Position numbers and translations under genes: made by a program. Positions 4,264-9,491 of a stretch of DNA of 52,827 nt are shown here, piece by piece. The notes beneath the pieces were generated by a model. That model was not told the origin of the DNA. It did no database searches and saw only the letters and a list, made by a program, of their open reading frames with translations. Position 1 is the stretch's first letter. Every line of letters starts with the position of its first letter. Origin of the DNA: an uncultured delta proteobacterium (GTDB taxonomy: Bacteria > Desulfobacterota > Desulfovibrionia > Desulfovibrionales > Desulfovibrionaceae); assembly GCA_903835685.1 (NCBI GenBank), contig CAILNX010000020.1:1-52827 (forward strand). The letters are read 5' to 3'.

Positions 4264-5151
4264 ATGCCGGAAAAACCGTTCACCCTGGGCCTGGTGCAGA
4301 CGTCCATGAGCCCGGACCCGGAGCACAACCTGGACCGGGCCGCGAAGCTGGCCGAACAGGCGGCCCAGGACGGAGCCCAGATCATCTGCCTGCCCGAACT
4401 CTTCCTCACCCCCTATTTCTGCCAGCGCGAGGACTCCGCGCTTTTTGACCTGGCCGAGACCATCCCCGGGCCGTCCACCGCGCGCCTGGGGGCCGTGGCC
4501 AAGAAGACCGGCACGGTCATCCTGGCCTCCCTGTTCGAGCGCCGCGCCCCGGGCCTGTATCACAACACCGTGGCCGTCATAGGCGTGGACGGCGAAATCA
4601 TGGGCCTGTACCGCAAGATGCACATCCCCGACGACCCGGCCTTTTACGAAAAATTCTACTTCACCCCCGGGGACCTGGGGTTTTCGTCCTTCGCCACCCC
4701 GTTCGGCCGCATCGGCGTGCTCATCTGCTGGGACCAGTGGTATCCCGAGGCGGCCCGCATCACCGCCCTGTCCGGGGCTCAGGTCATCTTCTATCCCACG
4801 GCCATCGGCTGGCACCCCAGCGAGCGCGAGGCGCACGGGGCCGAGCAGCGCGACGCCTGGATGACCGTGCAGCGCGGCCATGCCGTGGCCAACGGGGTGT
4901 ACGTGGCGGCCGTAAACCGGGTGGGCCACGAAAAGCCCGCCACCGGCGGAGAGGGCCTGGTTTTCTGGGGCACCAGCTTTCTGGCCGACCCCATGGGCCA
5001 GATCACGGCCGAGGCTGGCGTCCAGGAGGAGGCCATCCTTCTGGCCGAAGTGGACCCGGCCCGACAGGAAGACGTGCGGAGGGGCTGGCCCTTTCTGCGC
5101 GACCGGCGTATAGACGCCTATGACCCCATTCTGCGCCGCTGGCTGGACTAG
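4264..5151 (+). CDS. aguB: N-carbamoylputrescine amidase
   Basis: This nitrilase-superfamily enzyme hydrolyses N-carbamoylputrescine to putrescine, CO2 and ammonia, the last step of the agmatine route. The 295-residue protein shows the Glu-Lys-Cys triad: Glu45 in CLPELF, Lys118 in YRKMHIPD and Cys155 in ICWDQWYPE. YHNTVAVI and the IGWHP segment fit AguB rather than a generic amidase. The start at ATG 4264 is chosen because the MPEKPFTLGLVQTSM beginning aligns with the family; the frame is open to 4186 upstream. It heads a cluster with pdaD, a DHS-like gene and aguA, which supports the substrate. Confidence 0.93.
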   Translation: MPEKPFTLGLVQTSMSPDPEHNLDRAAKLAEQAAQDGAQIICLPELFLTPYFCQREDSALFDLAETIPGPSTARLGAVAKKTGTVILASLFERRAPGLYHNTVAVIGVDGEIMGLYRKMHIPDDPAFYEKFYFTPGDLGFSSFATPFGRIGVLICWDQWYPEAARITALSGAQVIFYPTAIGWHPSEREAHGAEQRDAWMTVQRGHAVANGVYVAAVNRVGHEKPATGGEGLVFWGTSFLADPMGQITAEAGVQEEAILLAEVDPARQEDVRRGWPFLRDRRIDAYDPILRRWLD

Positions 5152-5314
5152 ACCTTAAAAAAAGCGCTCCCTGGAGAGCCGCCAGGCCTTAGAAACGCGG
5201 ACAACCATCCGTGATTGCTTTGAAAAATAATGCTGGCGGTTCTGGTTAAAACACCATATAGGGGCAATCGCGTCGGGGTTCCGGCGCAAATCAACCGTGA
5301 GGGAGGATACGCCC

Positions 5315-5875
5315 ATGGCTGGCCAAAATTCCTTTGTTCCGTCCAAAGCATTCTTCACCCGTGGCGTGGGCCACCATAAGAATAAGCTCCAATCCTTCGA
5401 GTTGGCCCTGCGCGAAGCGGGCATCGAGAAGCAGAATCTGGTATACGTGTCCAGCATCTATCCGCCGAACTGCGAAATGGTCACGGTGGAGGAAGGGGTC
5501 AAAAACCTTCAGCCCGGCCAGATCACCTTCTGCGTCATGGCCCGCAACCAGACCAACGAGAAGGGCCGCATCGTGGGCTCGGCCGTGGGCATGGCCTTCC
5601 CGGCCAACAAGGAGCACTACGGCTACATCTCCGAGCACACGGCCTTTGGCCAGGACCAGCACGAGATCGGGGACTATGCCGAAGACCTGGCCTCCACCAT
5701 GCTGGCCTCCACCCTGGGCGTGGATTTCGATCCGGAGATCGGGTACGACGAGCGCCGCGAAGTGTACCTCATGAGCGGCAAGATCATCTCCTCGGCCTCC
5801 TGCCCCTGCGTGGCCACAGGCCAGGCCAACATGTGGACCACAACGGTCTCGGCCGTGGTGTTCATCATCGAATAA
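5315..5875 (+). CDS. pdaD: Pyruvoyl-dependent arginine decarboxylase
   Basis: The enzyme decarboxylates arginine to agmatine using a pyruvoyl group made by self-cleavage. The 186-residue protein has the cleavage region NLVYVSSIYPP; the serine pair Ser46-Ser47 is the predicted break, Ser47 becoming the pyruvoyl residue. GAGGGAGG lies nine bases before ATG 5315, which is preferred to ATG 5297. The next gene starts inside the stop codon (TAATG), so the two are translationally coupled. The 163-base gap after aguB could hold its own promoter, but none is clear. Confidence 0.92.
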   Translation: MAGQNSFVPSKAFFTRGVGHHKNKLQSFELALREAGIEKQNLVYVSSIYPPNCEMVTVEEGVKNLQPGQITFCVMARNQTNEKGRIVGSAVGMAFPANKEHYGYISEHTAFGQDQHEIGDYAEDLASTMLASTLGVDFDPEIGYDERREVYLMSGKIISSASCPCVATGQANMWTTTVSAVVFIIE

Positions 5876-6963
5876 TGTCCGATAAGCGCAAACACCTCCA
5901 TACTGGCGTCGAGGACGGGCTCACCCCCCTGACCACCCTGGACCCGGACCGCATCGGCGATTTCGACGACCTGCTCACGGCCATGTCCCACACGGCCTTT
6001 GGCGGCCGCGCACTCGGCGAGGCCCTGGACGTGCTGGAGGCCATGGTCATTGACCCCGAGTGCCTGGTGGTGCTCACCCTGTCCGGGGCCATGACCGTGG
6101 CCAAGATGTCCAAGGTCATCATGAAGATGATCGACGAGAAATGGGTGGACGTGGTCATTTCCACGGGCGCGCTCATGGCCCACGGGTTCATCGAATCCAT
6201 CGGGCTCAAGCACTTCAAGTATGAGCCGCACAAGATGGACGACACCGTGCTGTTTGCGCACGGATACAACCGGGTCTACGACACCCTGGAGCCCGAGGCC
6301 AATTTCACCCAGGCCGAGCTCGTGGTCCGGGCGGTCATGCAGCAGATCAAGAAGAAGGGCCTGACCTACCTGTCCTCGGAGATCATCTGCCGGGAGATCG
6401 GCGAGTATCTCTGCGAGCACGTGGACGGCCCGGGAATATTGAAAAGCGCCCACGAAAAGGGCGTGCCGGTGTACGTCCCGGCCTTCACGGACTCGGAACT
6501 GGCCCTGGACGTGGCCTGCTCCCTGCTGGCCGAGCAGTACGACTTTCTCCTGGACCCGACCAAGAAGCCCGAGGACCTGCCCTTTCACTTCAATCCCTTC
6601 CTGGACCTGTTCAGCTACGCCCGCAAGATCCACGGGGCCAAGCGCCTGGGCATCCTGACCATCGGCGGGGGCGTGCCCCGCAACTGGGCCCAGCAGGTCG
6701 GCCCCTTTTTCGACATCATGGGCCAGCGCCTGGAGCGCGACGACCTGCCCCAGCGCCGCTTCACCTACGCCATCCGCATCTGCCCGGAACCGGTGCACTG
6801 GGGCGGGCTGTCCGGCTGCACCTACCAGGAGGGCATTTCCTGGGGCAAGTTCGTGCCCCCGCAGGAAGGCGGCCGCTTCGCCGAGGTCCATGCCGACGCC
6901 ACCATCGCCTGGCCCATCCTGGTCCAGGGCCTCATGGACCGGCTGAGGAAAAAGGGACGCTAG
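5875..6963 (+). CDS. speY: Deoxyhypusine synthase-like enzyme (probable homospermidine synthase)
   Basis: The 362-residue protein belongs to the deoxyhypusine synthase fold: a GGGVPRN nucleotide-binding motif (264-270) and WGK with the catalytic lysine at 325 are present. True bacteria do not make hypusine. A DHS homologue in Anabaena has been shown to make homospermidine, and such bacterial genes are called speY; the same NAD-dependent aminobutyl transfer is likely here, with putrescine (from aguA/aguB) as donor and acceptor. Use of agmatine in place of putrescine is an alternative. The ATG at 5875 overlaps the pdaD stop by one base. Confidence 0.8.
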   Translation: MSDKRKHLHTGVEDGLTPLTTLDPDRIGDFDDLLTAMSHTAFGGRALGEALDVLEAMVIDPECLVVLTLSGAMTVAKMSKVIMKMIDEKWVDVVISTGALMAHGFIESIGLKHFKYEPHKMDDTVLFAHGYNRVYDTLEPEANFTQAELVVRAVMQQIKKKGLTYLSSEIICREIGEYLCEHVDGPGILKSAHEKGVPVYVPAFTDSELALDVACSLLAEQYDFLLDPTKKPEDLPFHFNPFLDLFSYARKIHGAKRLGILTIGGGVPRNWAQQVGPFFDIMGQRLERDDLPQRRFTYAIRICPEPVHWGGLSGCTYQEGISWGKFVPPQEGGRFAEVHADATIAWPILVQGLMDRLRKKGR

Positions 6964-7074
6964 CGCCCGGACGCAGGACCTTCCCGGGTCCTGTCGATGC
7001 AGTAGGAAAAAATGCGCCGAGGCCTTCGGCTTCAAGAACAAGCACGGCATGAACGACACAAAGACCCACACCAG

Positions 7075-7114
7075 GAAGAAGAGGAGGAATATGATATTTT
7101 CTTTCTCTTCTTCT
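7075..7114. terminator. Purine/pyrimidine-biased AT-rich hairpin
   Basis: GAAGAAGAG (from 7076) and the following purine-rich run pair, with G-T wobbles, with TTTTCTTTCTCTTCTTC ending near 7114. A pyrimidine tract follows. It lies in the 223-base gap between the DHS-like gene and aguA and resembles three other palindromes in the window (30801, 36123, 48695). A smaller G/C hairpin, CAGGACC-TTCCCG-GGTCCTG, sits at 6974-6993. Confidence 0.5.
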
Positions 7115-7186
7115 TGTTCTTTCCGGCCTGCCCGCCCTACGTCCGAATCTCTTTTCCCGGTACGGCCCTAGTCCACCCGCCCCCCC

Positions 7187-8272
7187 ATGACGCCCATGCC
7201 CGCTGCATCCCCCTCCCTGCGCCTGCCCGCCGAGTGGGAGCCCCACGAGGCCACCTGGCTCACCTGGCCCCAGGCCACGGCCGATTGGCCCGGGCGTTTC
7301 CAACCCATCCCCTGGGTCTTTGCCGAAATGGTCCGACGTCTGGCTCTAGGCGAGCGAGTGCGCCTCCTGGTGGGTTCGGTCCAGGTAGCGGCCCGGGCTC
7401 GGGGCATGCTCTCCCGCGTGCATGCGCCCCTGGACCAGGTGGATTTCCTGGTCCTGCCCACGGATCGGGGCTGGATGCGCGACAGCGGCCCGGCCTTTGT
7501 GCAGGACTTGCACGCCCCGCAGGGCGTGGCCGTGGCCGGGTTCGGGTTCACGGGCTGGGCCAAATACGACAACCACGCCCTGGACACCCTGGTCCCGGAA
7601 CTTGCGGCCGCCCGCCTGGGCCTGCCCTTTCATTCCATCGAGCATAAAGGCGCGCGCGTGGTGCTGGAAGGCGGGGCCATTGACGTAAGCGGCGCGGGCC
7701 TCATCATCACCACCGAGGAATGCCTCCTGGACCCGGCGGTCCAGGTGCGCAACCCCGGGTTCACCAAGGCCGACTACCAGTCCGTGTTCCGCCAGGCCTT
7801 TGGCGCATCCTCGGTATTCTGGCTGGGCCAGGGCATTGCGGGCGACGACACCCACGGGCACGTGGACGACCTGTGCCGCTTCGTGAACGAACGCACCCTG
7901 GTGCTCTGCCAGGAAAAGAACCCGGCCGACGCCAATTTCCGCCCCCTGGCCGAGAACTGGGAGCGCATCGCCGATCTGCGCCTACCCGACGGTTCCAGGC
8001 CCGAGGTCGTGGCCCTGCCCATGCCCGAGCCCCTGATTTTCGACGGCCAGCGCCTGCCCGCCAGCTACGCCAATTTCTACATCGGCAACGCGGCCGTGCT
8101 CGCGCCCACCTTCAACGACCCGAACGACCGCCTGGCCCTGGGCATCCTGGCCGAGCTCTTCGACCGGCCGGTCATCGGCATCCACGCCGTGGACCTGGTC
8201 TGGGGCCTGGGCACCATCCACTGCCTGACCCGGCAGGAACCCGCGCGCCGAACCCCAGCCCCCCGTCCCTGA
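7187..8272 (+). CDS. aguA: Agmatine deiminase
   Basis: Converts agmatine to N-carbamoylputrescine and ammonia, between pdaD and aguB in the pathway. The 361-residue protein is a guanidine-group-modifying (pentein) enzyme: GWMRDSGP, LEGGAID, GDDTHGHVDDL with the catalytic histidine, and a nucleophilic Cys346 in GLGTIHCLTRQEP. A second ATG three codons in (7196) is an equally possible start, and no clear ribosome site precedes either. Together with aguB, pdaD and speY it gives a complete arginine-to-putrescine route. The thioesterase gene follows after 21 bases. Confidence 0.93.
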   Translation: MTPMPAASPSLRLPAEWEPHEATWLTWPQATADWPGRFQPIPWVFAEMVRRLALGERVRLLVGSVQVAARARGMLSRVHAPLDQVDFLVLPTDRGWMRDSGPAFVQDLHAPQGVAVAGFGFTGWAKYDNHALDTLVPELAAARLGLPFHSIEHKGARVVLEGGAIDVSGAGLIITTEECLLDPAVQVRNPGFTKADYQSVFRQAFGASSVFWLGQGIAGDDTHGHVDDLCRFVNERTLVLCQEKNPADANFRPLAENWERIADLRLPDGSRPEVVALPMPEPLIFDGQRLPASYANFYIGNAAVLAPTFNDPNDRLALGILAELFDRPVIGIHAVDLVWGLGTIHCLTRQEPARRTPAPRP

Positions 8273-8293: not shown

Positions 8294-8779
8294 ATGACCC
8301 AAGCCTTCCAGGACCAGTTCGCCGAGCGCCACAGCCACTGCTACGGCTGCGGCCGCTCAAACGAGCAGGGCATGAAGATCAAGAGCCGCTGGGAGGGGGA
8401 GAAGAGCGTGTGCCGCCACACCCCGCCCGAGTTCATGCACGGGGTCCCGGGCTTCGTGTACGGCGGGCTCATCGCCTCGCTCATGGACTGCCACGGCATC
8501 GGCACGGCCACGGCCGCGCACTTTCGGCAGGCCGGAACGCCCATCGGCTCGGACCCGGCCGTGCGCTACGTCACCGCAGCCTTGAGCGTGGACTACCTGA
8601 AACCCACGCCCACCGGGGTGGAGCTGGAGCTGTGGGGCACTGTGCGGGAGATCAAGGGCAAGAAGATCGTGGTAGACATCGAACTGAAGGTGGCCGGAGA
8701 GGTCACGGCCCGAGGCCAGGTGGTGGCCGTGCGCATGCCCGAGAATTTCGGGGGCGCGATGCAGAGCGAGGGGAAGTAG
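8294..8779 (+). CDS. PaaI-type hotdog-fold thioesterase
   Basis: The 161-residue protein has the hotdog fold signature of the PaaI/YiiD group: an early CYGCGRSNEQGMKIK segment, FVYGGLIASLMDCHG (the HGG-like helix, here YGG), and LSVDYLKPTPTG before a core strand. It probably hydrolyses a CoA thioester; the substrate is unknown. GGAGG precedes the ATG by five bases. It follows aguA closely and could be cotranscribed, although no polyamine role is evident. The CYGC pair is common in this subgroup and may bind metal, which is inference. Confidence 0.8.
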   Translation: MTQAFQDQFAERHSHCYGCGRSNEQGMKIKSRWEGEKSVCRHTPPEFMHGVPGFVYGGLIASLMDCHGIGTATAAHFRQAGTPIGSDPAVRYVTAALSVDYLKPTPTGVELELWGTVREIKGKKIVVDIELKVAGEVTARGQVVAVRMPENFGGAMQSEGK

Positions 8780-8847: not shown

Positions 8848-9171
8848 ATGTACAACCTGGAGTTCTACACCACTGAGGACGGCACGCCTGTCGTTCACAA
8901 ATGGTTGACCGAACTGCGGGACTTAAAGGCCAGGGCGCGGATCATGGTCCGCTTGGACCGGGCCAAGGCCGGAAACCTGGGGACCAGCAAGGCCCTGCGC
9001 GACGGCGTGTACGAGATGAAAATTGATTACGGCCCCGGGTATCGCGTCTACTACGCGCTGGTGGGAGCCACGGTGGTCCTTCTCCTGAACGGGGGGGACA
9101 AGAGCAGGCAGGCCAAGGACATCGAACGAGCCGTGGCCTTTCTCGCGGACTATCGAAGGAGAACCTCATGA
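8848..9171 (+). CDS. RelE/ParE-superfamily toxin (HI1419-like addiction module killer)
   Basis: The 107-residue protein matches the 'addiction module killer' family of the RelE/HigB type: an early EFYTTEDGTPVVHKWL segment, GNLGTSKALRDGVYEMKIDYGPGYRVYY in the core, and a closing LNGGDKSRQAKDIERA. Family members usually act as ribosome-dependent mRNA interferases or are of unknown target. The toxin gene comes first and the antitoxin second, as in HI1419/HI1420. The antitoxin ATG overlaps the toxin stop (ATGA). No Shine-Dalgarno precedes the ATG at 8848, which coincides with the predicted transcription start. Confidence 0.87.
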   Translation: MYNLEFYTTEDGTPVVHKWLTELRDLKARARIMVRLDRAKAGNLGTSKALRDGVYEMKIDYGPGYRVYYALVGATVVLLLNGGDKSRQAKDIERAVAFLADYRRRTS

Positions 9172-9491
9172 AAAAGGGCAAGGCCTCTGTGCCCTACGAT
9201 CCTCTGGTGGTGAACGACCTCCGCCAGGACCCGGCCCTGGCCGCCGAGTATCTTCGGGCGGCCATGGAGGACGAGGAGGAACCTGCGGCTCTCCTGATCG
9301 CCTTGCGGCATATCGCCGAGGCCTACGGTTTCCAGGCCGTGGCCCAAAACGCGGGACTGAACCGCGAGAGCCTCTACCGAGCCCTTTCGCCCAAAGGCAA
9401 CCCGACCCTCAAGACCATGAACGCCGTGCTCAAGGCCGTGGGAGTCAAACTGTCTGTCGAGCCCCTGGCCACCCGCCACGTGGCGCAATAG
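9168..9491 (+). CDS. HTH antitoxin (HI1420-like)
   Basis: This 107-residue protein is the antidote partner of the preceding toxin. It begins with a short basic segment and YDPLVVNDLRQDPALAAEYL. The carboxyl half is a helix-turn-helix of the addiction-module antidote type (YGFQAVAQNAGLNRESLYRALSP, split here for length: recognition helix around RESLYRAL). It should bind the inverted repeat in the promoter at 8822-8839 and repress the operon. Overlap with the toxin stop by four bases implies coupled translation. Length and order are as in the family. Confidence 0.87.
   Translation: MKKGKASVPYDPLVVNDLRQDPALAAEYLRAAMEDEEEPAALLIALRHIAEAYGFQAVAQNAGLNRESLYRALSPKGNPTLKTMNAVLKAVGVKLSVEPLATRHVAQ

Follow-up and report, generated by a model that had tools for sequence, protein, structure and literature searches.

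A gene cluster of an uncultured Desulfovibrionaceae bacterium with a deoxyhypusine-synthase-like enzyme and a predicted route from arginine to homospermidine

The window, a stretch of 52,827 nucleotides from an uncultured delta proteobacterium of the Desulfovibrionaceae (contig CAILNX010000020.1), carries a gene for a protein resembling deoxyhypusine synthase (DHS) among genes for polyamine synthesis: directly behind pdaD, which encodes a pyruvoyl-dependent arginine decarboxylase, and between aguB and aguA, which encode an N-carbamoylputrescine amidohydrolase and an agmatine deiminase. This raises the question what such an enzyme produces in a bacterium, and from which substrate. A sequence-only reading of the window had proposed homospermidine, a small positively charged molecule that is used instead of the common polyamine spermidine, and had named agmatine as an alternative substrate. 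Our analysis suggests that the cluster probably represents a complete arginine-to-homospermidine pathway, with an NAD-dependent, SpeY-like DHS homologue that would be fed with putrescine.

In this pathway PdaD would decarboxylate arginine to agmatine, AguA would deiminate agmatine to N-carbamoylputrescine and AguB would hydrolyse the latter to putrescine. The DHS-like enzyme would oxidise one putrescine with NAD+, bind the aminobutyl moiety through an imine at Lys325 and hand it to a second putrescine, and reduction of the product would yield sym-homospermidine. This route would stand in for spermidine synthesis in the window genome. We infer these reactions, in which putrescine serves as donor as well as acceptor, and the replacement of spermidine from the genes and their families, their recurrent linkage, the fold, the active-site residues and the missing carboxynorspermidine decarboxylase (CANSDC) and SpeD, all of which were observed.

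The four genes of the cluster

All four genes are present on the + strand where the sequence-only reading had placed them (Table 1), and the Pfam matches of their products are far above the gathering scores. The TAATG coupling of pdaD to the DHS-like gene, also part of that reading, can be seen directly in the sequence. Matches to NCBIfam models were weaker, with AguB, AguA and the DHS-like protein all below the equivalog cut-offs. AguB reached 310.3 bits on TIGR03381 (agmatine_aguB; cut-off 410.25), which is by far its best family, and AguA reached 205.3 bits on PRK13551 (cut-off 483) and 193 bits on TIGR03380 (cut-off 381.8). All five of the other AguA proteins from Desulfovibrionales that were scanned are under the TIGR03380 cut-off as well. 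PdaD passes TIGR00286 (126.1 bits, cut-off 106.95) and fails PRK12398. The proteins contain the motif sets PEL/YRK/CWD (AguB), MRD/GHVD/HC (AguA) and VSSI (PdaD), which we take to be those expected for their families; Ser46-Ser47 in the VSSI motif of PdaD presumably form its self-cleavage site, by analogy. Between the stop of the DHS-like gene and the start of aguA lie 223 bp in the window, compared with about 20 bp or less in several relatives.

Table 1. Features of the cluster, with positions in the window
Feature	Position	Strand	Evidence
aguB, N-carbamoylputrescine amidohydrolase, 295 aa	4264..5151	+	Pfam CN_hydrolase 215.8 bits; motifs LPEL, YRKMH, CWDQWYPE
pdaD, pyruvoyl-dependent arginine decarboxylase, 186 aa	5315..5875	+	Pfam PvlArgDC 195 bits, cut-off 22.7
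TAATG stop-start overlap of pdaD and DHS-like gene	5873..5877	+	sequence; stop TAA (5873-5875) and start ATG (5875-5877) have one A in common
DHS-like gene, 362 aa, clade DHSA, predicted homospermidine synthase	5875..6963	+	Pfam DS (PF01916) 248.8 bits, cut-off 27; Lys325; ATG at 5875, stop at 6963
aguA, agmatine deiminase, 361 aa	7187..8272	+	Pfam PAD_porph 322.6 bits; GHVD; Cys346 in IHCLT

Downstream of the cluster, a hotdog thioesterase gene (8294-8779) is followed, at 8848-9491, by a Gp49-type toxin-like gene and an HI1420-type antidote gene.

Clade and active site of the DHS-like protein

The DHS-like protein is a clear member of the DHS superfamily (PF01916), and its position within this superfamily was examined with a tree. 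For this purpose 230 DHS matches were reduced to 229 by a length filter and to 85 by removal of near-copies at 78% identity. The window protein falls into a clade of 44 rows, here termed DHSA, which forms one branch with a support of 100/99. Separate from it are the groups CdmS (7 rows), SpeY (12 rows) and DHSB, a second paralogue of the Desulfovibrionales (15 rows). A second, faster tree without the long branches L073, L184 and L168 recovered the same groups, and selecting rows by the residues Asn270, Trp271 and Cys315, with L184 omitted, returned the same 44 rows as the clade. None of the 12 DHSA members scanned, i.e., the window protein and eleven others, exceeded the cut-off of any NCBIfam DHS-type model; the window protein reached 237 of 434 bits on PRK00805, 171.2 of 500 on NF002699 and 150.9 of 450 on NF001980. 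Naming by the top-scoring NCBIfam model would make the DHSA proteins deoxyhypusine synthases. Three of the four SpeY-group proteins scanned pass NF001980, the fourth, from a five-row subgroup (L204), does not, and all three CdmS-group proteins scanned pass NF002699. NF001980, named 'homospermidine biosynthesis protein', presumably corresponds to the Anabaena-type DHS-like homospermidine synthase. The sequence-only reading had called the window protein a relative of the Anabaena enzyme. The SpeY type is, however, only a distant relative at about 24-28% identity (24.5-27.9% for the SpeY-group and CdmS-group proteins compared, 25-28% for three NF001980 members), and DHSA is a clade of its own.

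DHSA is widespread. A contig scan for relatives of the DHS-like protein gave at least 587 stretches with a match. Relatives are encoded by 563 of them, and the best 80 loci were analysed. The DHSA carriers among these best 80 belong to the Desulfovibrionales, Desulfobacca, other Thermodesulfobacteriota, Nitrospirota, Acidobacteriota, Planctomycetota, Omnitrophota, Woesearchaeota and Myxococcota (Sorangium, Polyangium and Minicystis). A search of a phage collection gave no match. Two draft genomes contain damaged DHSA copies, one with an in-frame TGA (L016, genome G057) and one in three pieces (G051:C15), which may be sequencing errors or decay.

An AlphaFold2 model of the window protein, built from an alignment of 42 sequences including its own, has a mean pLDDT of 90.4 and a pTM of 0.89 and closely resembles human DHS (Z 33.3 and rmsd 2.2 over 306 residues, with Z values near 33 for alignments of 306-323 residues). 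With eukaryotic and archaeal DHS the protein has in common the fold, the catalytic Lys, a Trp (Trp323) and a Glu (Glu319). The catalytic lysine that the sequence-only reading had identified, Lys325, indeed aligns with Lys329 of human DHS and Lys299 of Thermus CdmS and is a Lys in 44/44 DHSA rows. Fold and lysine would be compatible with a deoxyhypusine synthase that modifies a target lysine in EF-P or another protein, a reading that we consider highly improbable. Asn106, Glu137, Asp243, His288 and Asp316 of human DHS are all altered in the window protein, with Ala72 and Asn270 at the places of Asn106 and His288 in 44/44 DHSA rows. Archaeal DHS have part of these exchanges: Asp316 is replaced by Leu in 7cmc and 8put, and Glu137 by His in 8put, but 8put retains both Asn106 and His288. 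Furthermore, the DHSA genes are linked with polyamine genes, and eIF5A above the cut-off was absent from 13 of the 14 genomes tested. The window genome (G000, 97.6% complete) is among the 13; its best TIGR00037 match reaches 24.5 bits (cut-off 75.45). The fourteenth, an archaeal metagenome-assembled genome of the Woesearchaeota (G301, locus L120), does contain eIF5A above the cut-off and has DHSA as its only PF01916 match. Either a true DHS is missing from this assembly, or DHSA may modify eIF5A there.

A more serious alternative concerns the substrate. CdmS of Thermus (TTHA1570) uses only agmatine, of which it couples two molecules before a SpeB-type ureohydrolase acts (PMC10981699). The agmatine alternative of the sequence-only reading thus has a real precedent in this caldomycin synthase. 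By analogy, the window enzyme could join two agmatines, or agmatine and putrescine, and AguA with AguB, or SpeB, would strip the guanidino groups to leave homospermidine. We regard this as unlikely. In favour of it, the DHS-like gene overlaps pdaD, and several active-site places agree with CdmS: Leu312 matches CdmS Leu286 (the place of human Asp316), and Glu141 and Glu148 correspond to Glu136/Asp143, the acidic pair at the entrance, which holds the second agmatine in the CdmS docking model (PMC10981699). Glu148 is present in 42/44 DHSA rows. Asn, as in DHSA, also stands at the His288 place in all 7 CdmS-group rows. Leu312 was rejected as a mark of agmatine use, as Leu occurs at this place in all DHSA rows, all SpeY rows and 5/7 CdmS rows, in a Haloferax plasmid homologue and in the archaeal DHS 7cmc and 8put.

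Other places argue against agmatine coupling. In the docking model Ser67 and Glu293 of CdmS lie at the guanidino group; these roles come from docking and not from mutants. CdmS numbering was carried over via a homologue from a Trichormus plasmid (592 bits on NF002699), which aligns with CdmS residues 67, 204, 286, 293 and 299 at a constant offset. Ser67 and Phe204 of CdmS are replaced by Ala72 and Leu211 in 44/44 DHSA rows, and DHSA has His103 and Asp341 where the 7 CdmS-group rows have Gln or Met and Glu, respectively. Columns 72, 103, 211 and 341 separate the SpeY group from the CdmS group, and DHSA is SpeY-like at them in 44/44 rows (column 211 is Met or Leu in the SpeY group). Ala72, His103, Asn270, Leu312 and Asp341 are all found in SpeY, together with the DHS fold and the catalytic Lys. 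The window protein also reaches only 171 of 500 bits on the CdmS model NF002699. At the level of sequence, the residues therefore favour putrescine, short of proof.

Gene neighbourhood and polyamine routes across genomes

The linkage seen in the window recurs among relatives. Within flanks of up to 6 kb, which are shorter at contig ends so that all counts are lower bounds, pdaD was found at 41, speB at 29 and aguA at 13 of the best 80 DHSA loci. As pdaD is adjacent to the DHSA gene or one gene away from it in many relatives, this linkage is not due to chance. In 13 of 14 Desulfovibrionaceae loci (L075-L088) the order is pdaD - DHSA - aguA, and the remaining one, cut by a contig end, shows pdaD - DHSA; aguB precedes pdaD, as in the window, only in L088, which is the same place as L044. 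Sixteen further loci (L089-L102, L106 and L108) were assigned to the Desulfovibrionales, partly by title or place in the tree. Ten of them have the order pdaD - speB - DHSA, eight of these with argS upstream, and the other six comprise one with pdaD - DHSA, one of insufficient length and four without such neighbours. In the loci viewed by eye, argS and pdaD are separated by a SPOR-like gene. One genome (G269) has an intact pdaD-DHSA-aguA cluster and, about 6 kb upstream of it, partial DHSA-like and aguA-like stretches (L069:1936-2744) that look like a partial duplication of the cluster. Many Nitrospirota loci have the order DHSA - DsbA-like - aldehyde dehydrogenase - pdaD - speB, the DsbA-like gene being named by eye. 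Of 43 matches to the aldehyde dehydrogenase 25 were viewed, all of them under the cut-off (L127, L130 and L149 are among such loci); this enzyme could deal with leaked aminobutyraldehyde.

Spermidine routes were surveyed in 297 genomes of the Desulfovibrionales, of which 44 have DHSA, 76 any counted DHS homologue and 221 none. Genomes were assigned to DHSA or DHSB by bit score and not by a tree of each protein. Weak or fragmentary matches (G050, G119, G132 and G224) were left out, although G050 may possess a genuine DHSA truncated at the end of a contig, and G051 was counted from its three fragments. CANSDC was found in 168 of the 297 genomes (E ≤1e-80; 162 above the curated cut-off). It occurs in 166/221 genomes without a counted DHS homologue, in only 2/76 with either DHS clade and in 0/44 with DHSA. 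For this mutual exclusion Fisher p is 1.4e-31, in a calculation that ignores the considerable kinship among the genomes. SpeD is present in just one of 33 DHSA genomes checked, and the window genome has no match to either CANSDC or SpeD. Nearly all of these DHSA genomes are thus devoid of the two spermidine routes that were tested for. DHSA probably takes over from spermidine synthesis, and the main triamine of DHSA genomes likely stems from the DHS homologue. For the same reason home-made spermidine is unlikely as the aminobutyl donor, and spermidine was dropped as a donor candidate.

The genes that process agmatine vary. The search covered 33 of the 44 DHSA genomes of the order: 19 contain only AguA, 13 only a SpeB-family gene and one, the window genome, contains both. 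Within the order an enzyme able to remove the guanidino group of agmatine is thus always found (33/33), while its kind varies. The SpeB-like gene of the window genome (L225:3820-4857, G000:C27) is unlinked to the cluster, passes TIGR01230 by 1.6 bits and lies beside integrase-like and Fic-like genes (by eye); among the 14 Desulfovibrionaceae DHSA genomes checked it is the only SpeB-family gene. Since AguA and SpeB exchange while the DHSA columns stay unchanged, the pattern fits a common intermediate, putrescine. Together with the CANSDC exclusion, the rarity of SpeD and the SpeY-type residues, it supports the homospermidine proposal of the sequence-only reading.

Read in terms of agmatine coupling, the same exchange would imply a second, non-Thermus route to homospermidine in at least six bacterial phyla, with the unrelated trimming modules AguA/AguB and SpeB interchanging, a reading that we likewise consider unlikely. 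AguA would, moreover, need to work on a long substrate and deiminate it at either end. The divergence of the window AguA could be taken as a sign of such a special substrate. This was ruled out, as the AguA proteins of two genomes with only DHSB are likewise below the TIGR03380 cut-off (226 and 244 vs 381.8 bits).

Several observations nevertheless weigh against a putrescine-fed, SpeY-like enzyme. DHSA is not the sister group of SpeY in either tree, and Glu141, the counterpart of CdmS Glu136, is present in 44/44 DHSA rows but only 4/12 SpeY rows. No close ornithine decarboxylase (ODC) was found in 28 DHSA genomes, in a search without a positive control; some match occurred in 21 of them, the full-length ones being 25-32% identical. 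DHSA therefore seems to travel with agmatine makers, which would also suit agmatine coupling. The AguA search covered the order only; outside it, a SpeB-family match was found in 18 of 24 DHSA genomes, and the other six, without such a match, give no sign of how agmatine would become putrescine. Two of the ten Planctomycetota genomes in the ODC and SpeB searches (G447 and G486) were taken as DHSA carriers by score alone. AguB was looked for at individual loci, and its gene adjoins that of AguA in 4/5 loci read. Finally, no assay of any DHSA-clade member was found in the open-licence literature, which was searched mostly at listing level. On balance we still consider homospermidine formation from putrescine the probable function.

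A different acceptor or product, such as aminobutylcadaverine, longer polyamines like canavalmine or the salvage of imported spermidine, appears improbable. Bacterial dhs products have been termed promiscuous homospermidine synthases (PMC8437039), and the second DHS paralogue in 13/44 DHSA genomes would permit two different products. The recurrent neighbours, however, provide agmatine and putrescine, and the mutual exclusion with CANSDC indicates a main triamine product.

Related pathways and the second paralogue

That bacteria form homospermidine with the DHS-like SpeY is taken as established (PMC9992855, PMC10407285), and the type of pathway proposed here has already been described. PMC10407285 reports clusters in which speY is accompanied by the gene for SpeDA, a pyruvoyl-dependent arginine decarboxylase, and by either speB or aguA/aguB. 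These resemble the window in combining such a decarboxylase and agmatine-to-putrescine enzymes with a DHS-like gene, but the window decarboxylase is of the PvlArgDC type (pdaD) and not a SpeD homologue. A drawing in PMC9992855 shows a SAR11 cluster that covers the same steps. For Zymomonas the same pathway to homospermidine has been proposed, with a decarboxylase, AguA, AguB and a DHS-like protein (ZMO1020-ZMO1019 and ZMO1369/ZMO1370); unlike in the window, the decarboxylase is of the ORN/DAP/ARG type instead of PdaD, and aguA/aguB form a separate operon (PMC8594446). What the window cluster adds is pdaD as the decarboxylase and the DHSA subfamily, although the 'SpeY' of the work in PMC10407285 and PMC9992855, which mentions a Woesearchaeota case, may already include DHSA proteins.

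On a Sphingomonas plasmid (L072) the NF002699 member lies beside a type III PLP-dependent gene, which was taken as ornithine-decarboxylase-like, while on the Trichormus plasmid (L071) it is accompanied by rocD and iron transport genes; both were covered by the NF002699 scan. The neighbours on a Nostoc plasmid (L074) are like those of L071. Because L072 adjoins an ornithine-decarboxylase-like gene, not every NF002699 member need use agmatine, and the name 'caldomycin synthase' may be too narrow.

The second paralogue, DHSB, was found in 45 of the 297 genomes, 13 of which also have DHSA (examples are L058:8439-9410 on the - strand, L051:2457-3524 on the + strand and L037:8596-9570 on the - strand). 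Its clade spans the Desulfovibrionales, Planctomycetota and Myxococcota. None of three DHSB proteins scanned exceeds any NCBIfam cut-off, and all 15 rows have Asp for His288, Tyr for Asp316 and Asn for Asp243 of human DHS and keep Glu137. No common neighbours were seen by eye in four DHSB loci. CANSDC is missing from 30 of the 32 genomes that have DHSB only.

For many uncultured and some cultured bacteria, among them Desulfovibrionales, Nitrospira, Acidobacteria, Planctomycetes and Sorangium-type myxobacteria, these results point to a probable pathway and a probable main triamine. In addition, residues 72 and 211 could help to tell putrescine-using from agmatine-using bacterial DHS homologues, if such a split exists.

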